Source of the DNA: Solobacterium sp.
GTDB lineage: Bacteria > Bacillota_I > Bacilli_A > Erysipelotrichales > Erysipelotrichaceae
Direction: 5' to 3'
Length of the DNA: 12,652 bases
NCBI GenBank assembly: GCA_016291725.1
Contig: JAEEYJ010000022.1
Location: 1 to 12,652, forward strand
Shown: positions 2,776 to 12,642 of the stretch, piece after piece
Layout: every line of letters begins with the position of its first letter
How positions within the stretch are numbered: position 1 is the stretch's first letter
Notes under the pieces: model-generated
The model's input: the letters and a program-made list of their open reading frames with translations, nothing else
Databases searched by the model: none
What the model was told of the DNA's origin: nothing
Made by a program: the position numbers and the translations under genes

Positions 2776-2808
2776 GCATACGAAAAGAAACAGCACGGTG
2801 GCTGTTCC

Positions 2809-2837
2809 TTGTCCGGATACTTTGCCTGGGCTATTAT
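2809..2837 (+). promoter_or_regulatory. Sigma-A type promoter for the PAS-CPBP gene
   Basis: TTGTCC at 2809-2814 (four of six -35 matches) is separated by exactly 17 bases from TATTAT at 2832-2837 (five of six -10 matches). Transcription would start near 2844, giving a leader of about 27 bases before ATG 2871. Confidence 0.5.
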
Positions 2838-2838
2838 G

Positions 2839-2850
2839 TGATTGTAATCA
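2839..2850. promoter_or_regulatory. Perfect 12-base dyad at predicted transcription start
   Basis: TGATT-GT-AATCA has perfect 5-base arms directly downstream of the -10 at 2832-2837. A repressor bound here would block initiation. The adjacent XRE regulator is one candidate, but this dyad differs from the palindrome before the XRE gene, so the same protein need not bind both. Confidence 0.28.
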
Positions 2851-2870
2851 TGCCCGGTAGGAGGACAGAG

Positions 2871-4097
2871 ATGGAGAACCAGAAAGAGACACAGGAAGCG
2901 ATTAAGGAAGATCAGGAAACCCTTGTACGCAGTATACAGGAAGATGAACTGCAGGATATGCTGGATGAAAAGGTCACCGATACGCTTCTGAACAGTGAAA
3001 TGGAAGTCGAAGTCACAGACGAAGAGATCTCGGAATCGGTGATCGATCCGGAGATGGTTCAGCAGACCATTGACGCGGAAGAAATGCAGGGGGTCCTCGA
3101 CACACGTGTTCTCAGGGACTTCGACGAAGGGATCATCACCTTCGACCGCAGCGGAGTCATCCAGTATATCAATCCCGCAGCGTCGCTGATTCTCGGCCTG
3201 ACAGGCAACGCAGTCGGGAAGAGATACCGTGATGTTTTCGACAAAGAAAACAGTGCACTGCTGGAGTTCCTGGTACGGTCTACGGCAGAAAAGAACACCT
3301 CGTACCGCGGCGATATTGTATTCCACCGGGATGATGGCAGAGACGTGCGCCTCAATACCAGCTGCATCTGCCTGCAGGATGATGATTCCCAGGAAAGAAG
3401 CTTTGCGGTTCACTTCGAGGACATCACAGAGATCGATATTCTGCGCCGCAAGCGCCGTGAAAGCTCAGCGGTATTCATCGGTACAATGACGGCTGTTTCG
3501 GTGTGGATCTTTATTGTGGCACTGTGGCAGCAGACAGGACAGAAGGTTCCCCAGGAAGTCATGACGCAGTTCATTCATGTCATATCTCTGGTCATGTTCT
3601 TCTATGTCCGCCGCTATACACATTTCTCCTTCGATGAAATGGGTCTGAAGTACAAAGGGATTTCCAAAGCAGTGAAAACAGACTGCCTGTTTACAGCCAT
3701 ATTCGCAGTGATGCTGTTCGGAGCCAAGTATCTGATCCTGCGTGTTTCACCGGGTTTCTTTGCACAGGGTGCTCCCTTCTGGGACTGGAGCAGGGCCAAC
3801 TGGTCCGACTATACCTATCCCTTGACGGTGGTCCTGCAGGAATTCCTGTCGCGGGGTGTCATCCATGAGAACCTTCGGCGTATCTTTGTCGGGAAGTACA
3901 GTGAAGCTGCGGCAATCATCGTTTCTTCTTTGCTGTTCGGTGCACTGCACATTCACCGTGGATTCATGTACATGATCGCTGCGACGGCACTGCTGTCGAT
4001 ATTCGGGGTTCTCTACCGGAAGCAGAACAGTATCTGGGGTCTGTGCATTCCGCACTTCGTTCTGGGAGAGATGGTATGGTTCCTGGGATTTGTGTGA
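2871..4097 (+). CDS. PAS-domain sensor fused to CPBP/Abi-type intramembrane protease-like domain
   Basis: 408 residues from ATG 2871, chosen because AGGAGG at 2859-2864 lies 6 bases upstream. The in-frame ATG at 2850 precedes that site and lacks its own. Residues 1-80 are strongly acidic and helix-prone. Residues about 80-190 form a PAS domain (GIITFDRSGVIQYINPAAS at 87-105, ending in FEDITEID), and a basic patch RRKRR follows at 192-196. Predicted membrane helices then run at about 198-219, 232-248, 270-290 and through 315-405. The last part has CPBP features: QEFLSR at 323-328 in place of EExxxR, FxxxH at 356-360, and His395. CPBP/Rce1-type proteins cleave peptides within the membrane or serve in bacteriocin immunity. 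The altered motifs make catalysis uncertain. The PAS domain would sense a cytoplasmic cue, but no ligand can be named. Confidence 0.8.
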   Translation: MENQKETQEAIKEDQETLVRSIQEDELQDMLDEKVTDTLLNSEMEVEVTDEEISESVIDPEMVQQTIDAEEMQGVLDTRVLRDFDEGIITFDRSGVIQYINPAASLILGLTGNAVGKRYRDVFDKENSALLEFLVRSTAEKNTSYRGDIVFHRDDGRDVRLNTSCICLQDDDSQERSFAVHFEDITEIDILRRKRRESSAVFIGTMTAVSVWIFIVALWQQTGQKVPQEVMTQFIHVISLVMFFYVRRYTHFSFDEMGLKYKGISKAVKTDCLFTAIFAVMLFGAKYLILRVSPGFFAQGAPFWDWSRANWSDYTYPLTVVLQEFLSRGVIHENLRRIFVGKYSEAAAIIVSSLLFGALHIHRGFMYMIAATALLSIFGVLYRKQNSIWGLCIPHFVLGEMVWFLGFV

Positions 4098-4418: not shown

Positions 4419-5402
4419 TTATTTTATGAGTTTGAACGGCTTGACGCCTTCCACTGCCTTTTTCGGTGTAATGCGTGCCTCCTCATTGTCCAGATCGATC
4501 AGGATGTACTTCATGTTGCCCATCCCGAGCTCATACATATAGGACAGCTGCCTGTGGCCGTGCCTTGTCTCAATGCGCTCCACCAGATCATGGTGGTCTT
4601 CCTCGCACATGGCATAGATCAGATCAACGCTTGCCGTATCGATGGCGCAGATATCGGTGGATGCCAGGATGCCGACGTTCGGGGTCACAACCGGTGCCGC
4701 CGCAACGCCCTCACAGTCGCAGGATACCGACATGTTGCGCATGACGTTGACGTAGGTAATGTTTTTGCCGAAGAAGTCGATCGTTGCTTTGGTGGATTCC
4801 GTGATCTTCTCCATCAGTTCCTCTTCCACAACACCCCAGTCATTGCCGTCCTTGGCGTGGATCATGCCTTTGCCGATGCGTCCGTCCGCGCAGCCGATGC
4901 CGATGTTCTTGTTGGAACCGCCGAAGCCGCCCATGGTGTGGCCCTTGAAGTGGGTCAGTACGAACATGGAATCATAATCGGTCATATGAGAGCCATGGGT
5001 CATATGGTCGAACCACTTGCCGCCCTTGACCGGCAGATCGACAGTTCCGTCTTCGTCCATGATATCCACCGGACGGAAGGTCCATCCGTTGATCTCCAGG
5101 GTCTTCCTGTGCTGTTCAGTAGTATAGCGGTCGCCTGTGTAGAATGTATTGGTTTCGACAATCACAGCGTCCTTCAGTGTCTCTTCGGTATCCAGGACCT
5201 TCTGTACCCAGGATGCAGGTGTGAAGTTGGGACCGTGCGGTTCACCGGTATGCAGCTTGACCGCAACCTTGCCGGTCATGTTTGCGTAGACTTTCTCATA
5301 GGCTTTCATGATGCCTTCCGGGGAAATGTCCCTGGTGAAATAGACGATGGATTCGTTGCCGGTTCTTTCCTCTGCAGGAATATACTTTCTTCCGTCTGCC
5401 AT
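4419..5402 (-). CDS. DUF362 domain-containing protein
   Basis: 327 residues. The DUF362 family is recognised by VAVKLHTGEPHG (residues 46-57) and especially HFKGHTMGGFGGSNKNIGIGC at about 151-171, followed by GKGMIHAKDG. Many DUF362 proteins carry 4Fe-4S ferredoxin domains or stand next to them. Here the whole length is the DUF362 domain and no CxxCxxC ferredoxin motif is present, although scattered cysteines (171, 228, 230) and a DCEG motif at 229-232 are seen. The biochemical role of the family is unsettled, and iron-sulfur or redox functions have been proposed. There is no signal peptide, so it is probably cytoplasmic. ATG (5402) has a strong AAGGAGG (complement of 5409-5415) upstream. The gene diverges from the deaminase-like gene and is closed by the terminator at 4361-4401. 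Confidence 0.88.
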   Translation of the reverse strand: MADGRKYIPAEERTGNESIVYFTRDISPEGIMKAYEKVYANMTGKVAVKLHTGEPHGPNFTPASWVQKVLDTEETLKDAVIVETNTFYTGDRYTTEQHRKTLEINGWTFRPVDIMDEDGTVDLPVKGGKWFDHMTHGSHMTDYDSMFVLTHFKGHTMGGFGGSNKNIGIGCADGRIGKGMIHAKDGNDWGVVEEELMEKITESTKATIDFFGKNITYVNVMRNMSVSCDCEGVAAAPVVTPNVGILASTDICAIDTASVDLIYAMCEEDHHDLVERIETRHGHRQLSYMYELGMGNMKYILIDLDNEEARITPKKAVEGVKPFKLIK

Positions 5403-5515: not shown

Positions 5516-5540
5516 GTAACACAATATCCGGGAGGTCGGT

Positions 5541-8006
5541 ATGGCATACTTCGGCAGGTTCTATCTGGACAAGGAAAAAGACATCATCATGGACATGGAT
5601 ATGACGGATGGTGTGCTTTCGTACGTACTATCCACACCGAACCATGGCACAGGCAATCTGATCACCAATTTTGCCAGGATGTGCCGTCTCCCGCTGTCTA
5701 CGGACGGCCACGGCCTGAAAGTAATCCGGGGAACCGTCCCCTGCTATATCGACGCCTACAACCGCAGGGTCTACATCTTCCGTCTGAACAATACCAAGAC
5801 AGCCAATATCTGGCCGGACGGTACGGTAGAGCTGAAAGCCTCCGTTCCGTCCATCTCCAAGACCCTGATGAGCCAGTCCAAGGAGTATGAACTGCCCTTC
5901 GAAAAGACCGTCGTCAAGACCTATATCCTGGATGAGTACAAGTTCCACAGTGACCTGCATACCCATATGAACGCCAACCTGCCGGCCGACATACTCATCG
6001 CCCTGGGCATTCATCACCGGATCCGCTATCCGCTTTACTACATCAAGAAACTGGAGCTGCGCTGTACGGAAGCACAGCAGAAGCTGCTGGAAGAGCGCAG
6101 GCAGAAAACAGCGGAACAGTTCCGGGATTCCGGACTCAGCGGGAGATACCTCGAACGGAAGATCGATGACAATACATACATCAGCTTTGCGGATCTGATT
6201 CTGAACAACCTGCAGAACGCAGCCTGGAACATCCCCCGGATCCGTGCCTCCCTGGCCGTCATGAAGGACGGGCAGGCCGTATTCACCAACCTGGAGAAGG
6301 TATATCTCTACCGGTATGTGTTCACAAAAGGGATAACGGTCGATGAGGAGGGGAAGATGCCGTCCGTGGACGGGATTCCCGATCCGGATATCGTCCGTAT
6401 CCTCCACCGGATGGCAGAAGACCGCAGACACCCTGTCTACGGACCCAATACTCTGTTTGAAGACAAACTGCTCTGGACAGCCCGGGAATTCCGCCGGCAC
6501 GGGATTTCCTATGCAGAGATCTCGGACACAACCCTGGTGAAAAGGGAAGGTGCGGCACAGATGCTCGCCCAGGTGCACCGGGTCATGCCGTCCGTCACAG
6601 CGGAAACCGGTGTTGTCCTGCGCTTCCTTGCCGCGATGCGCAGAATACCCCTGACCATCATTAAGGACCGCATTGAGAGTGATTATGCCCGGGAGAACCT
6701 GCAGGTACTGCAGGCGGTTTCCTGTGATCCCTATGTAGCCGGTTCGGACATTGTGGGAGAAGAGATGAATGATATCCTCGATCTCCGTCCGGTCATCAGT
6801 GAAATCGTACGGATTGCGGCAGAGGATCCTTCGTTTGTTGTACGGATCCACGCAGGAGAGAATGACAGCCTGCGGGACAATGTACACAACAGCGTCCGCT
6901 GTGTAAAGGAAGCCCTGGCACCGGGTCAGCCCATGCCGCGCATGCGGATCGGCCATGGTCTGTATACTGCCAACCTGAATTCCGCCAAAGGCCGGAAGCT
7001 GCTCAAGGATATCCAGGAAAACAATGTCGTACTGGAATTCCAGATTACCTCCAATGTCCGTCTGAACAATCTCACCACCCTGGACAAACATCCGCTGAAG
7101 CAGTACATTGCGGCCGGCATCCAGTGTGTGCAGGGTACGGACGGCGGTGCATTGTACGGTACGGACTCCATCGATGAACAGCTTTGCCTGGAAAAGATGC
7201 TGGGGCTGACCAGAGAGGAACTGCTGTCCATGCGCCGCGCGGAAGACCGGGTGGTTGCGGACAGCCTGAAAGGATTCCGGGAGAAGCAGGAGCGCTTCGA
7301 TGCCCTGCGCAGCGGCATGGATGTCCTCTCATTCCTCAGGAGCAGAATCCCGGAAGAAGACACGGGCATACTACCGCTTCCTGCCGGGGAGCGGAAGTAT
7401 GATGGTTCTGCTGTACTGAAGGAGAAGATCGCCCAGATGCCTGCGGACAGGATCCCGGTTGTTCTGGTCGGCGGCAGCTTCAACAAAGACCGGCGCAGCA
7501 CCCGGATCCGTCCGGAAGACTGCACGCTGATAGACCGGCTGATCGAAGAAGGCAATCCCGAACACATGTTCTTTGTCATCGGACACCGCCTGAGCGGATA
7601 TGAACAGTATCTCCTGGAAAGGAACCAGGGGAAATACATGGTATATGCGTTTGTCCCTTCCCTGATCAATGCCCGGGAGAAAAAGCGGCTGCTGGACGCA
7701 GAGCTGAAATACCGTATCTGCCTGGAAACATCCGCTATGGGCATGTACAAGAGCCTGGCCTATGAAATCTTCAAACGGCGTCCTTCCATCATGGTCGCGC
7801 TGGACGGCAACAGTGCAGCGCAGAACATGATCCAGGAAGCGAAGAACGCCAAGTATGCCTGCCGCACCTACATCAGTGCCCGCTCCCGCCTGCTCAGCAC
7901 CAAAGCACGCTCCCTGCACGGCTATGTTACGGTATTCCGGGAAGATGTTTCCCGGGAGATCCTGCAGGATGTGGAAGAGCAGTACAGGCTGATGCATAAA
8001 CAATAA
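5541..8006 (+). CDS. Adenosine-deaminase-like metal hydrolase with C-terminal SLOG/LOG-like Rossmann domain
   Basis: 821 residues, more than twice a typical adenosine deaminase (about 330-350). Residues 1-135 form an unassigned N-terminal region. The deaminase core motifs then appear in family order: DLHTH with metal ligands His140 and His142; IHAGE at 436-440 with metal ligand His437 and catalytic Glu440; RIGHG at 469-473 with His472; and GTDGG at 532-536 with the expected metal ligand Asp534. Canonical enzymes read TDDP there, so the second aspartate is missing. HxH to HAGE spans about 295 residues against about 200 in mouse ADA, implying roughly 100 inserted residues around 165-265. Residues about 638-800 form a separate alpha/beta domain (VVLVGGSFN, then VIGHR, then SAMGMY) reminiscent of SLOG/LOG nucleotide-binding folds; that assignment is inferred. 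Substrate is unknown; a modified nucleoside or nucleotide signal is plausible. Single-gene transcript with its own promoter and terminator. Confidence 0.82.
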   Translation: MAYFGRFYLDKEKDIIMDMDMTDGVLSYVLSTPNHGTGNLITNFARMCRLPLSTDGHGLKVIRGTVPCYIDAYNRRVYIFRLNNTKTANIWPDGTVELKASVPSISKTLMSQSKEYELPFEKTVVKTYILDEYKFHSDLHTHMNANLPADILIALGIHHRIRYPLYYIKKLELRCTEAQQKLLEERRQKTAEQFRDSGLSGRYLERKIDDNTYISFADLILNNLQNAAWNIPRIRASLAVMKDGQAVFTNLEKVYLYRYVFTKGITVDEEGKMPSVDGIPDPDIVRILHRMAEDRRHPVYGPNTLFEDKLLWTAREFRRHGISYAEISDTTLVKREGAAQMLAQVHRVMPSVTAETGVVLRFLAAMRRIPLTIIKDRIESDYARENLQVLQAVSCDPYVAGSDIVGEEMNDILDLRPVISEIVRIAAEDPSFVVRIHAGENDSLRDNVHNSVRCVKEALAPGQPMPRMRIGHGLYTANLNSAKGRKLLKDIQENNVVLEFQITSNVRLNNLTTLDKHPLKQYIAAGIQCVQGTDGGALYGTDSIDEQLCLEKMLGLTREELLSMRRAEDRVVADSLKGFREKQERFDALRSGMDVLSFLRSRIPEEDTGILPLPAGERKYDGSAVLKEKIAQMPADRIPVVLVGGSFNKDRRSTRIRPEDCTLIDRLIEEGNPEHMFFVIGHRLSGYEQYLLERNQGKYMVYAFVPSLINAREKKRLLDAELKYRICLETSAMGMYKSLAYEIFKRRPSIMVALDGNSAAQNMIQEAKNAKYACRTYISARSRLLSTKARSLHGYVTVFREDVSREILQDVEEQYRLMHKQ

Positions 8007-8035
8007 AGACCTTCTGGATCAGAAGGTCTTTTTAT
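8005..8035. terminator. Bidirectional terminator between convergent genes
   Basis: The 11-base perfect stem AAAGACCTTCT (8005-8015) pairs with AGAAGGTCTTT (8021-8031) around a GGATC loop. T-rich tracts follow on both strands. It overlaps the last two bases of the deaminase-like stop codon, and the minus-strand glycosyltransferase stop codon (8019-8021) lies at the loop. Confidence 0.88.
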
Positions 8036-9200
8036 TCAGCAGACGATCCACCGCTTCCCGGTACAGTTCAGTGCTTTTCTCCGGACTGAACCGGGTCCGC
8101 CAGATTTCCAGTGCCCGCTGCTTCTTTTCGGGACTCAGCCGGGAGGCAGTCAGCTTCTTCAGTGCATCGATGAATGCTTCGGCTATATCTGCCTGCATAA
8201 TACAGTCATTGTCTGCCGGATAGCCGATCAGGGCTTCTTCCGTCCCGAGTACAGGAATGCCCCAGGACAGGGCTTCCGCGACCTTGACTTTCATCCCGGT
8301 GCCGTGCAGCAGCGGAGCAACGCAGAGATCCGCTTCCTGGAAGTACGGACTCAGATCAGCAGGGGAATCCACCAGTTCAACATGGTTCCGGCGGCACATT
8401 TCCCGCAGTTCTTCGTCCGGGTTCCGGCCGGCCAGGATGAGCCGGCAGTTCCTTTCCGGCATTTCTTTGCGGAAAGGAACCCATACATGTTCAATGAACC
8501 AGAGCAGGCCTTCCTTGTTCGGGTAATACCAGAAAGAGCCGGTGAACAGAATACTGAAGGGCTCTGCGGAATCCTTTTCCGACAGATCCACCTCCCGTTC
8601 CGGAACACAGACCGGAATGATGACGCACTGATCCGGGTTCACGTGATAGAGCTCCATAGCCCGCTGCACATCACGTTCGTTCAGGAAGGCAAACAGAACA
8701 TTCTCCCTCATGGACAGAATCCTTTTTTCACAGGTAGATTCCGGCAGATAGAACGTGAAGAACCGCTTCAGCTTTTTCAGCGGACGATCATCCTGCTTCA
8801 TATTGTTGTAGGAGGAGTCTCTCTCAATGTTGTGCAGCCGGATGATCATCGGCTTTCCCAGCCGTACAGCGGTGTCAACGCCGATCGGTGAACTGCTGCT
8901 TTCTATATGGAACAGATCATAGCCGCTCAGGTCCGTCGTTTTTTCAAACGCATCCATGGACGCAACAAACCCGTTATACCTTCTCCGCAGCAGCAGAACG
9001 GCCAGCCGCCGCAGGGAAAAGTGTGCATGTGTCAGACAGCCCAGGACACGTACGTTGGCGGGGAGGGAGTCCACAACAGGCTCGCTGCTCACAATATCCA
9101 CATCCGCAAAGGATGCCATGGACTGTACGGACTGCATGACGACAATCCCGCCGCCGGATATGTTTCCGGGCGGAAAGAGGGCAACCTCCAGTATTTTCAT
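8019..9200 (-). CDS. GT4-like glycosyltransferase
   Basis: 393 residues with a GT-B layout. The N-terminal acceptor-side domain opens MKILEVALFPPGNISGGG, with the glycine-rich loop at residues 12-18, and LHNIE is at 122-126. The C-terminal donor domain starts near 216 (ILFTGSFWYYPN) and carries HGTGMKVKVAEALSWG at 299-314. In most GT4 enzymes this site is E-x7-E. Here Glu309 is present but the first glutamate position is Thr301, a form seen in a GT4 subgroup with a GTGxKVK pattern. A retaining transfer from a nucleotide sugar at the cytoplasmic membrane face is expected; donor and acceptor are unknown. Its ATG overlaps the stop of the upstream glycosyltransferase (4 bases), with AAAGGAAGG about 8 bases before it. 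Last gene of a leftward three-gene operon. Confidence 0.88.
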   Translation of the reverse strand: MKILEVALFPPGNISGGGIVVMQSVQSMASFADVDIVSSEPVVDSLPANVRVLGCLTHAHFSLRRLAVLLLRRRYNGFVASMDAFEKTTDLSGYDLFHIESSSSPIGVDTAVRLGKPMIIRLHNIERDSSYNNMKQDDRPLKKLKRFFTFYLPESTCEKRILSMRENVLFAFLNERDVQRAMELYHVNPDQCVIIPVCVPEREVDLSEKDSAEPFSILFTGSFWYYPNKEGLLWFIEHVWVPFRKEMPERNCRLILAGRNPDEELREMCRRNHVELVDSPADLSPYFQEADLCVAPLLHGTGMKVKVAEALSWGIPVLGTEEALIGYPADNDCIMQADIAEAFIDALKKLTASRLSPEKKQRALEIWRTRFSPEKSTELYREAVDRLLNKKTF

Positions 9201-10342
9201 GAACGGAACCTTCCTTTCAGAGATTGATAGCGTTCCTTGATCACTGCACCGCAGGATGCATAGGAGAACCCGGTTTCCATGCTTGCCTTCGCCGATTCAG
9301 CGATGGAACGGTAGTAGACTGGATCTGTATACAGACGTTTCATATACACTGCAGCCTGCGCTGTATCCGCTTCTGCCCAGCGGCCTTCCTGGAAGAAGTG
9401 GAACGAGTCTTCAACAGGAATCAAGGTATAGCCCACAGGGCAGGCATTGGCTTCGTTCATATAATCGGTATTGCCGGACCAGCCTGTCGCAATGACCGGT
9501 TTCCCCAGCTTCATCGCTTCTGCTGGAACCAGCCCGAATCCTTCCGCTCTGTGCAGGGATACATATACATCCGTACAATCGATCAAGGACCGTACTTCAT
9601 CTCTGGTCTGTTCCTGAAGGAGAAAACGAACATCGGCATCTCCGGCCAGATCCTTGAGCATTGCAAGCTCCGGTTCTCTGCTATGGGTCACTTTTACAAT
9701 CAGAAGCGGACCGTTCCTGTCCTCACCGAAGGCATTCCGGAACGCTTTGATCGCCGCCATCGGATTCTTCCGGGTATACAGTGAATTGGAATCATACATT
9801 GTCAGGAATACAAACCGGTCCCGGGGAATACCGAAATCCTCCCGGCTGTATACCTTTTCCCGGTCAACATCGGGGATATCCGATATAACAATCACCGGCT
9901 TGTCCGTGATTCTCCGCAGTGCTTCCGCTGAGAAGGATGACGGCGTCCAGAATTCGTCGAACAGATCCAGGTATTTGTACCAGGATACGGGAACATCCTC
10001 CAGTTCCCATACCCAGTGGCTGATATTGTACCGGGAGAGCCACAGCTGTATCGGGATGCGTTCTACAGCGCTCATACAATCGTAGCCGTTGCAGAAGATG
10101 ACATTGATGCCGTAGGGCTCTGCATTGGGCGGCATATGGTCGAAGTCCATCACCTGGTACGGCAGCCCTGCCGCATCCATGGACTTTATCATGCCCCGGA
10201 AGGACTCACCCAGTCCGGTCGGGAACTCCGGATATCCAAAACAAAGGAATCCAGGCTCCAGTTTACGTATATCCGGTTTCCGCAAGGCTTCAATCAGTAT
10301 CCTGCGGGAATGCAGGTACAGCTTCTTCGGTGCGATTCTCAT
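9197..10342 (-). CDS. GT4-family glycosyltransferase
   Basis: 381 residues. The N-terminal domain has FGYPEFPTGLGESFR at 35-49, a glycine loop typical of GT-B acceptor domains. The C-terminal domain has YTRKNP (189-194, basic residues near the donor phosphates) and the full E-x7-E motif, Glu267 and Glu275 in RAEGFGLVPAEA, followed by GKPVIATGWSGNTDY. This pattern is classic for GT4 retaining transferases of capsule, teichoic-like or exopolysaccharide synthesis. No signal peptide or membrane helix is evident, so it is probably a peripheral protein at the cytoplasmic membrane. The start overlaps the upstream gene by ATGA (10339-10342) and the stop overlaps the downstream gene by ATGA (9197-9200), so all three are likely translated in a coupled way. 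Sugar specificity cannot be read. Confidence 0.9.
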   Translation of the reverse strand: MRIAPKKLYLHSRRILIEALRKPDIRKLEPGFLCFGYPEFPTGLGESFRGMIKSMDAAGLPYQVMDFDHMPPNAEPYGINVIFCNGYDCMSAVERIPIQLWLSRYNISHWVWELEDVPVSWYKYLDLFDEFWTPSSFSAEALRRITDKPVIVISDIPDVDREKVYSREDFGIPRDRFVFLTMYDSNSLYTRKNPMAAIKAFRNAFGEDRNGPLLIVKVTHSREPELAMLKDLAGDADVRFLLQEQTRDEVRSLIDCTDVYVSLHRAEGFGLVPAEAMKLGKPVIATGWSGNTDYMNEANACPVGYTLIPVEDSFHFFQEGRWAEADTAQAAVYMKRLYTDPVYYRSIAESAKASMETGFSYASCGAVIKERYQSLKGRFRS

Positions 10343-11481
10343 CCGGTCACCTTCCTGAACAGTGCGGTATACTGTTCTGCACAGTGCGCGGCACTGTATT
10401 CCTGTTCAAAAGCATCCCGGATGTTCATCAGCTTCTCCTGCGGGTCCGGGTGTTCCAGTACATCCAGGATACAGCCTGCCAGTTCCCGGTCATCCATGGG
10501 ATCCTTGTAGTAGTGGACCAGGCCGTGGGTGGTATCGGTAAACGGATGGATCTCCGGTACAATGACGCTCTTTCCGTACAGAGCAGCTTCGATCGGTGTA
10601 CGCCCGAAGCCTTCTGCACGGGAAGAACTGACAAACAAAGTACAGTTCTTCAGAAGATCGTTCACTTCTTCTTCCTTTGCCCGGATGATCAGATCAACCC
10701 GCTCCTCCAGCTGATTCTCCCGGATGAATACCCGCATTTTCTCTACATAGTCGGGATCCTGCCAGCCGCCGCAGAATACCAGCCGGCAGGGCGTCTGTCG
10801 GGCAATGCGGGCGAAGGCTTTCAGCAGAGTCATCTGGTTCTTGTGCTCCCCGTAGCCGTTGATGCTGAGGATATACGGCGTACGCTCCGGATCCGGTACA
10901 GTATGCGCCGGTATCAGGAAAGGATTAGGTATATAGACCGGGTCTGTATCCGGGAAGGAGTCCTTGATATCCCGGCACGTCATCTCCGATACACCTGCAA
11001 TCGCTGCAGCCCGGTTCATCATAGCCTGGAACTCCGCCGCATCTGCCGGTTCCTTGACGTCATTGTGGTAGATCATCAGATCATGGATGGTCAGGATGTA
11101 GTTCCTGCCCTGTGCCGCCTTCCAGAAGAACTCCGGCAGTCCGTAGGGAAACCAGATGCAGTCCACATCCCTCAGCGCCTGTGTACGGAAGAAAAGGGCT
11201 GTTCTCCGGTTCAGCCGCCTGAACCATCTCAGGCTGCGCTCTGCACCGAGCAGAGGCGCGCTCAGCCGCAGGATCCGGTTGACAGCGACGACTTCGCAGT
11301 CCGGAAACCGTTCCTTCAGATAATCCTGCTGCCCGCTTGTACAGCAGATGCGGAACCGGTTCGCCATCCCCGCATCAGCGAACGCATCCAGCAGAACGCC
11401 GGTGAAAATGCAGAAGGATTTCAGAAGCGTCTTCTGTTCGTATTCAATCGTATCCAGGAATGTAAAGTCTACTGCAATCAT
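10339..11481 (-). CDS. GT4-family glycosyltransferase, first gene of leftward operon
   Basis: 380 residues. The N-terminal half shows TIHDLM at 131-136, and the donor half starts near YILSINGYGEHKN (203-215; GEHKN holds the usual basic donor-binding residue). The E-x7-E motif is intact, with Glu290 and Glu298 in RAEGFGRTPIEAALYG. This is the form common in mannosyl- or rhamnosyl-type GT4 enzymes, though specificity is not assignable. The start ATG at 11481 has no Shine-Dalgarno-like sequence. A predicted extended -10 lies so close that the leader would be about 4 bases, so translation may be leaderless. No other in-frame start exists upstream before the divergent gene. It transcribes leftward with the two genes at 9197-10342 and 8019-9200. 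Confidence 0.88.
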   Translation of the reverse strand: MIAVDFTFLDTIEYEQKTLLKSFCIFTGVLLDAFADAGMANRFRICCTSGQQDYLKERFPDCEVVAVNRILRLSAPLLGAERSLRWFRRLNRRTALFFRTQALRDVDCIWFPYGLPEFFWKAAQGRNYILTIHDLMIYHNDVKEPADAAEFQAMMNRAAAIAGVSEMTCRDIKDSFPDTDPVYIPNPFLIPAHTVPDPERTPYILSINGYGEHKNQMTLLKAFARIARQTPCRLVFCGGWQDPDYVEKMRVFIRENQLEERVDLIIRAKEEEVNDLLKNCTLFVSSSRAEGFGRTPIEAALYGKSVIVPEIHPFTDTTHGLVHYYKDPMDDRELAGCILDVLEHPDPQEKLMNIRDAFEQEYSAAHCAEQYTALFRKVTG

Positions 11482-11484
11482 GTG

Positions 11485-11500
11485 TATAATGACTATATCA
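11485..11500. promoter_or_regulatory. Back-to-back divergent -10 elements
   Basis: Plus strand: a perfect TATAAT at 11485-11490, with only a weak -35 match (TGTAAA at 11461-11466, spacer 18). Minus strand: TGATATAGT, an extended -10 whose hexamer is the complement of 11492-11497. The two elements are one base apart and point in opposite directions, so RNA polymerase could probably occupy only one at a time. Confidence 0.5.
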
Positions 11501-11529
11501 GAAAACCTGAACGCATTGCACAGTAACCT

Positions 11530-12642
11530 ATGAAGCTTGGCATTGATCTATGTTCATTCGAAGCCGTCCATGGGGGCGGAAAGGACCAGGTGGCCTACTA
11601 TCTGATCCAGGGCTTTACTATGCTCGGCCATACGGATGAAATGGTCTGGATCTGCCGGGAGGAGCTGATTCCCAGACTGCGCGGCTTCAACGAAAAGGTC
11701 ACCATCCGTACCATAGAAGCCACGGAAGAAGGGCTTTCCCATGCATACTGGAAGCGGGATCTCTGCAGAATCATCCAGGAAGAAGGGATTGATGTCCTGC
11801 TGTTCACGAACAAGTTCACACCCCGTACAAAGTATCCGGTGCCTACGGTATCCATAGAACATGACGTACAGTACCTCATACCGGCCCTGTACGGTTCCTG
11901 GCTGAAGCTGCGTCCCCGCTGGCTGCCCAAGGACCGGATCAAGATCCTCCTGGATTTCATCAACCGCGACCGGATCGTTGCGATCTCCGACTATGACCGG
12001 AGCGTAATGGAAAAGTATGTACCGTTTGCCAGGGGAAAGATACAGCGCATCTACGATCCTGTGGTGTTCCATGGACCGGTCCGGCCGCGTGCCGGCAGGG
12101 AAACAAGCATCACAGCCATCAATGTCCAGCACGGCCACAAGAATACATTGACGCTGGTCCGGGCGTTTGCCGGGATTGCGGACCGCATACCGCATCGTCT
12201 TGTCTGTATCGGGAAACCGCCGGAGAACATGGACCCCATCCGGGCATGCATCGAGCAGCACAGCCTGCAGGACCGGGTCCTGTTCACCGGCTTTGTAGAG
12301 GACATGCAGGAGTATATCCGTGATACCGCACTCTATGTGAATCCGTCTACATTTGAAGGCTTCGGCATGACGGCTGTGGAAATGATGGGTGCCGGCATAC
12401 CGGTGCTCACTGCGGACAACAGTGCCCAGAAGGAAGTCACCATGGGCAGGGGAAGGTACTACAGGCCGGCGACGGACGCAGAAACGCTTGCCGAAGCCAT
12501 GCTGGACGCCTTGAAGAATCCACCGTCAGAGGATGAGCTTCAGGAAAGCGCCCGTCTGGTCCGGGAAGCGTATGACCGGATCCGATGTGCAGAAGCCTAC
12601 TGGGCTTTTCTGTCGGAACTGAGCGGAGGGAAAGCACTATGA
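11530..12642 (+). CDS. GT4-family glycosyltransferase, rightward
   Basis: 370 residues. The N-terminal domain begins MKLGIDLCSFEAVHGGGKDQ, with a glycine loop at 14-17, and continues with SIEHDVQYL (108-116). The donor domain has VQHGHKN at 199-205, with Lys204 in the usual donor-phosphate position. The intact E-x7-E motif follows, Glu276 and Glu284 in FEGFGMTAVEMMGAGIPV. It is therefore a retaining GT-B enzyme of the GT4 family, probably assembling a surface glycan with its leftward neighbours. The only possible upstream start is excluded by an in-frame TAA just before ATG 11530, and there is no Shine-Dalgarno sequence, which is unusual in this window. Its stop overlaps the start of the next gene (ATGA 12639-12642). 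Confidence 0.9.
   Translation: MKLGIDLCSFEAVHGGGKDQVAYYLIQGFTMLGHTDEMVWICREELIPRLRGFNEKVTIRTIEATEEGLSHAYWKRDLCRIIQEEGIDVLLFTNKFTPRTKYPVPTVSIEHDVQYLIPALYGSWLKLRPRWLPKDRIKILLDFINRDRIVAISDYDRSVMEKYVPFARGKIQRIYDPVVFHGPVRPRAGRETSITAINVQHGHKNTLTLVRAFAGIADRIPHRLVCIGKPPENMDPIRACIEQHSLQDRVLFTGFVEDMQEYIRDTALYVNPSTFEGFGMTAVEMMGAGIPVLTADNSAQKEVTMGRGRYYRPATDAETLAEAMLDALKNPPSEDELQESARLVREAYDRIRCAEAYWAFLSELSGGKAL

Follow-up and report, generated by a model that had tools for sequence, protein, structure and literature searches.

The DNA analysed here, called the window, is a 12,652-nucleotide stretch from Solobacterium sp. (Erysipelotrichaceae; contig JAEEYJ010000022.1 of assembly GCA_016291725.1) and carries a gene that joins an adenosine-deaminase (ADA)-type barrel to a C-terminal domain predicted to belong to the SLOG superfamily. 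This ADA-SLOG gene, delimited by its open reading frame (ORF) and by homologue search, is intact, runs from 5541 to 8006 on the forward strand including the stop codon, starts with ATG and encodes 821 residues; GGGAGG at 5530–5535 (+), read from the sequence, is its likely ribosome-binding site. The protein begins with a beta-rich domain (residues 1–126; 5541–5918, +), continues with the barrel and its insertion (residues 127–581; 5919–7283, +) and ends in the SLOG-type domain, modelled as residues 612–821 (7374–8003, +) with a fold core at about residues 638–800. The host genome is 1.67 Mb and 80.9% complete, the window being its contig C195, and the nearest named relative, 97% identical in this protein, is a Solobacterium sp. 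bin from dairy-cattle duodenum.

The deaminase assignment rests on a profile match and on motifs. Pfam A_deaminase, the sole Pfam match at E ≤ 1, covers residues 314–565 at E 4.2e-14, scoring 52.8 bits where the cut-off is 27, and the expected residues follow one another in the expected order. By homology, H140 and H142 of the motif H140-T141-H142 (5958–5966, +) are metal ligands, HAGE at residues 437–440 (6849–6860, +) supplies a further metal ligand and the catalytic Glu, and GHG at residues 471–473 (6951–6959, +) supplies the catalytic His472; TDGGA at residues 533–537 (7137–7151, +) keeps the metal ligand D534. In an alignment of 81 proteins (the window protein and the best 80 of at least 545 genome loci), H140, H142, H437, E440 and H472 are kept in all 81 and D534 in 80. 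A search of a viral fold library gave a single match at E ≤ 0.001, which spans 313 residues. Together with the structural matches, the profile match and motifs bear out the deaminase core that an earlier note had read from the letters of the sequence, and they place the barrel in the adenosine/AMP deaminase superfamily.

Two substrate contacts of this barrel depart from those of canonical enzymes. Alignment to ADAs in the PDB shows that the position of mouse-ADA D19 is N or S, and that of D296 is G (here Gly535), across all 81 proteins; because of these two replacements, free adenosine is an unlikely substrate. The profile scores are low as well: ten NCBIfam adenosine-deaminase models score 20–45 bits against cut-offs of 216–549, and the canonical equivalog cut-offs of TIGR01430 and PRK09358 are missed (43 against 216.55 bits and 45.1 against 459 bits). 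Both other ADA-family proteins of the host genome (C190:16030-17019 and C98:3858-4817), which keep the motif HLHLDG, score better, at 272 and 153 bits, and have N at the D296 position. ADA-family genes of at least 100 bits are equally common in congeners with (15/48) and without (7/22) the ADA-SLOG gene.

The C-terminal domain was identified by fold. A separate AlphaFold model of residues 612–821 has a predicted local distance difference test score of 93, and its best structural matches are the TRPM melastatin region, the Moco carrier protein, DprA, LOG and PpnN, at sequence identities of 8–17%. Since these are SLOG-superfamily structures, the SLOG name that the earlier note had only inferred appears to be right; the domain does not match a non-nucleotide family, and the superfamily has many nucleotide-binding members. 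For 41 members of the family, a Pfam scan at E ≤ 10 listed 13 families, none of them a SLOG model, and a PDB sequence search gave no match. As for the two C-terminal motifs pointed out in the earlier note, GGS is kept as GGS[FY]N in 75 of 81 C-termini, and of GHR, G681 is present in all 81 but H682 in only 61. The active-site motif of LOG enzymes is GGxGTxxE, which occurs in 0 of the 81 C-termini.

The N-terminal extension and the insertion that accompanied the original description are real features of the family, conserved to the same degree as the barrel: the mean frequency of the majority residue is 0.777 for residues 1–126 and 0.756 for residues 171–262, against 0.753 for barrel residues 305–581. 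The extension, beta-rich in the structure model and without a Pfam match, is of no known family; the insertion (6051–6326, +) is mostly helical, with approximate boundaries drawn from modelled secondary structure and conservation. One architecture runs throughout the 81 aligned proteins. Searches with the isolated ends returned 106 proteins of 73–222 residues from 117 candidates (residues 1–130) and 90 proteins from 125 candidates (residues 629–802); where a name is given, it is partial adenosine deaminase or hypothetical protein, with several records marked partial, and many of the matches lie on short contigs, a few on contigs longer than 40 kb. We read them as fragments of the same ADA-SLOG protein, and the architecture therefore appears fixed at this search sensitivity.

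The family is large and patchily distributed. In the protein database, 5528 of 7998 scored candidates match the window protein at E ≤ 0.001, and the best 120 of these are 59–97% identical over 97–100% of the query, a similarity that is thus beyond chance; the few named relatives among these 120 are mostly called adenosine deaminase, one hypothetical. A sample of the phylum gave matches in 8 of 392 genomes, all in the same family or order and one through a short generic match; of the 272 genomes of the family 78 match, as do 12 of its 59 genera, although for two of these genomes, and one genus with them, the match is only a short generic one; and within the genus the gene is present in 48 of 70 species. 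On an rpoB tree of 60 of these 70 congeners, the other ten having no usable central rpoB stretch, presence and absence change 12 times, at least seven of them on supported branches, although some absences may reflect incomplete bins or missing contigs. Title codes read as ruminant (RGIG, RUG, RUI, reindeer) attach to at least 59 of the best 80 loci, a count that is biased because these loci are the nearest to a ruminant-associated query. The picture is one of a patchy single-gene family of gut bacteria, many of them from ruminants.

A gene tree of the 81 proteins, built by a quick method and without an outgroup, gathers 15 Actinomycetota sequences together (support 100), with Clostridia bins as their nearest rows (99); the window protein is 58–61% identical to the Actinomycetota loci among the best 80. 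Locus L035, labelled Erysipelotrichaceae, falls within a supported set (99) otherwise made up of Lachnospiraceae and Eubacteriaceae. Both placements show the pattern expected from transfer and may reflect it, or they may stem from wrong binning. No match was found in the phage records searched, none of 25 pattern-bearing stretches of viral contigs encodes a relative, and plasmids gave no whole-protein homologue, their two matches covering 26–34% of the protein at less than 30% identity. Several copies within the bacterial family, for example those on G579:C178, G441:C152 and G427:C36, are listed with in-frame stop codons, one or two per stretch, and so some of them may be broken or end early.

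The ADA-SLOG gene stands alone within the window. Upstream, on the opposite strand, lies a DUF362 gene (4419–5402, −), and downstream a glycosyltransferase gene points towards it; a stem search placed a terminator-like stem of 12 pairs (8005–8031, −) between the two convergent genes, one of four such sites found in the whole stretch against 2.3 expected. The DUF362 protein occurs in 53 of 70 congeneric genomes, at up to 98% identity outside its own, and in the ten short other-species loci examined the DUF362 gene had no second window gene beside it, so that they offered no clean empty site for comparison. Four glycosyltransferase genes stand in a row at 8019–12642; at E ≤ 1e-60 the first (8019–9200) was found in only 2 of 70 congeneric genomes, one of them the host genome itself, and because of this the locus looks like a strain-specific surface-sugar locus. 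Farther upstream, one protein (2796–4097, +) combines a PAS domain with a CAAX-type (Rce1-like) membrane protease, a pairing that seems unusual to us; the relative with the 97% identical protein has a similar gene upstream of its ADA-SLOG gene.

This isolation extends to the homologues. Flanking ORFs were called by a longest-ORF rule, which also yields false ORFs, at 73 of the 80 loci and in the window (74 in all); seven loci (L005, L009, L037, L053, L067, L068 and L072) were lost, the ADA-SLOG gene being masked there by a false ORF of greater length. The rule listed 528 flanking ORFs, and the nearest of 110–700 residues on each side, 135 proteins, were scanned with PADLOC and Pfam. In this survey, which had no random-neighbour control set, each family was matched by at most 3 of the 135 proteins. 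Leaving the query aside, the commonest gene cluster occurs at 16 loci and looks, from its first residues, like ABC transporters; tightly spaced same-strand neighbours were counted 43 times in 80 loci, with a shared cluster in at most three cases; and a cluster resembling the 5'-deoxynucleotidase YfbR lies near the gene at four loci. PADLOC matches common to two or three flanking proteins (mad3, mad8, GlgB, pVip, PDC-S01, NsnB, AriA, PtuA and others) look generic, and a few single matches are strong (PDC-S01, 2.9e-166; PDC-S27, 3.5e-42). No cas gene was named among the window genes scanned and no cas effector among the 25 of 30 PADLOC and 25 of 130 Pfam families listed for the 135 neighbours; two WYL models labelled as CAS-associated signalling match one flanking protein each. 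Because neighbours do not recur, the loci give no sign of a defence island and form no salvage operon, as far as a survey with no random control can tell. The single-gene character claimed in the earlier note is upheld by these results, and operons of purine salvage are not a consistent setting of the homologues; the defence islands that the same survey might have revealed did not appear.

ThsA SLOG domains respond to cyclic ADP-ribose isomers made by ThsB TIR proteins, according to two reports (PMC11204291, PMC12948488), and for this reason TIR co-occurrence was examined among the 70 congeneric genomes. Among the 48 carriers of the ADA-SLOG gene, 30 have ThsB_TIR and 37 have TIR_2; among the 22 non-carriers the counts are 6 and 8 (Fisher p 0.0095 for ThsB_TIR and 0.0025 for TIR_2). 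Of seven supported independent pairs on the rpoB tree of 60 genomes, 0.7 vary in the same direction as the ADA-SLOG gene for ThsB and 1.2 in the opposite direction, the corresponding values for TIR_2 being 0.8 and 1.7; this test has little power because few pairs differ. The raw association shows no trend across phylogenetically independent pairs, and we have dropped the link. Separately, very many TIR_2 matches were counted in three congeners (47 in G444, 22 in G422 and 16 in G429), many of them in ORFs longer than 500 residues; G444 is listed as 10% contaminated.

We propose, with about an even chance of being right, that the ADA-SLOG gene encodes a stand-alone, signal-gated purine-nucleotide deaminase in which the SLOG domain does the gating. 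We favour this gated nucleotide deaminase because of the parts of the protein and their conservation; that it is active as a deaminase, which class of substrate and which ligand it takes, that it is gated and that it forms an oligomer are all inferred. The metal-dependent barrel would deaminate not free adenosine but an adenine-type substrate bearing a phosphate or some other 5' group. Binding of a nucleotide ligand (ADP-ribose-like, AMP-like or alarmone-like) by the C-terminal SLOG domain would switch the deaminase on or off, and the N-terminal domain and barrel insertion most likely build an oligomer that transmits this gating. Such an enzyme may act as an infection or stress effector, or it may control the nucleotide pool.

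The antiphage role advanced in the earlier note is the same signal-gated deaminase with its role specified. In our version, a nucleotide made or altered on phage infection would be sensed by the SLOG domain, and the barrel, like those of RdrB and Cad1, would then destroy ATP or dATP and halt growth. We regard this version as possible but not probable. It has a precedent in RdrB and Cad1, ADA barrels that act in defence by converting ATP to ITP (PMC9994260, PMC11645235 and PMC12669630), and it would suit the patchy presence among the 60 congeners, the single Actinomycetota group nearest to Clostridia bins and the union of effector and sensor-like parts in one self-contained protein. Against it stand the lack of recurrent neighbours at the 74 loci and the generic look of the shared PADLOC matches, the absence of homologues from the phage records and viral contigs and of whole-protein homologues from the plasmids searched, and the loss of the TIR association on the rpoB tree, so that an antiphage role is so far without support; the protein is also well conserved as far as Actinomycetota, unlike many fast-evolving sensors. 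While what the earlier note observed is confirmed, its interpretation is only partly supported.

A bifunctional enzyme of salvage catabolism, whose SLOG domain would be a nucleosidase like LOG and PpnN and would work with the deaminase to degrade the adenine nucleotides abundant in gut and rumen, is in our judgement unlikely. PpnN and LOG are indeed among the C-terminal structural matches, the strong conservation of the protein and the YfbR-like genes at four loci would be in keeping with it, and the many ruminant loci would fit a habitat-linked metabolic trait, but that count is biased by the habitat of the query, the LOG motif is absent from all 81 C-termini and neither transport nor salvage genes are recurrently linked. 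Least probable, and quite improbable, is that the protein is an adenosine deaminase of the usual kind bearing additional structural domains, as some public records file it. Pfam and NCBIfam adenosine-deaminase models do match, and named relatives mostly bear that name, yet the NCBIfam scores fall far below their cut-offs, two substrate-binding positions are altered, the host genome already has two better ADA-family matches, and the conserved SLOG domain has no known place in such an enzyme.

Among known systems, the gated nucleotide deaminase proposed here most invites comparison with those that place an ADA barrel or a SLOG domain in a nucleotide-consuming protein. ADA2/ADGF proteins and AMP deaminases share the barrel and give the longest aligned stretches among the rows listed (348–349 residues, from model residue 104 or 106), and they have no SLOG domain. 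The motif of AMP deaminases is TDDP, which corresponds to TDGG in the window protein. TRPM, the Moco carrier protein, DprA, LOG and PpnN share the fold of residues 612–821; they differ in their partners and, as noted, in their low identity, and the LOG active-site motif is missing here. ThsA of Thoeris likewise joins SLOG to a nucleotide-consuming enzyme, but that enzyme is SIR2 rather than an ADA barrel; no ThsB-type TIR gene lies beside the window gene, whose presence shows no co-variation with TIR genes when phylogeny is taken into account.

RdrB likewise has an ADA barrel that is extended at the N-terminus and split in its core by an insertion, and its motif residues H152, H154, H498, E501 and H530 (PMC9994260) occupy positions similar to H140, H142, H437, E440 and H472 here. 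RADAR differs in that the window gene has a C-terminal SLOG domain and no adjacent RdrA-like partner: its neighbours are the DUF362 and glycosyltransferase genes, and none recurs elsewhere, though no RdrA model was searched by name. RdrB is not among the 50 VIA-align rows listed for the model, an absence that excludes nothing. Cad1 is part of type III CRISPR systems and binds cyclic oligoadenylate through a CARF domain; its likeness would be that of a sensor-gated ADA barrel, with CARF there and SLOG, as we propose, here. The sole PADLOC match of the window protein at E ≤ 1 is to CARF_ADA, of which only the ADA part aligns (341–572 of 605), and the sensor would sit at the other end, with the beta-rich residues 1–126 at the N-terminus. 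With no CRISPR locus in the window, no adjacent RdrA and no SIR2, the protein falls outside Cad1, RADAR and Thoeris, and we found no description of an ADA-SLOG fusion in the open-access literature searched. In gut and rumen bacteria, a large family of proteins that records call adenosine deaminase or hypothetical, where they name them, has both a conserved domain of sensor-like character and changed contacts to the substrate. It is conceivable, though doubtful, that it represents a widespread one-gene immune or stress effector, a third independent ADA-barrel weapon against the nucleotide pool in which SLOG, rather than CARF or the RdrA funnel, gates the deaminase. Were its role metabolic, it would still be a new mode of allosteric purine-pool control; and if the gated nucleotide deaminase is right, the few ATP-deaminating effectors, RdrB and Cad1, would gain a branch under SLOG control.
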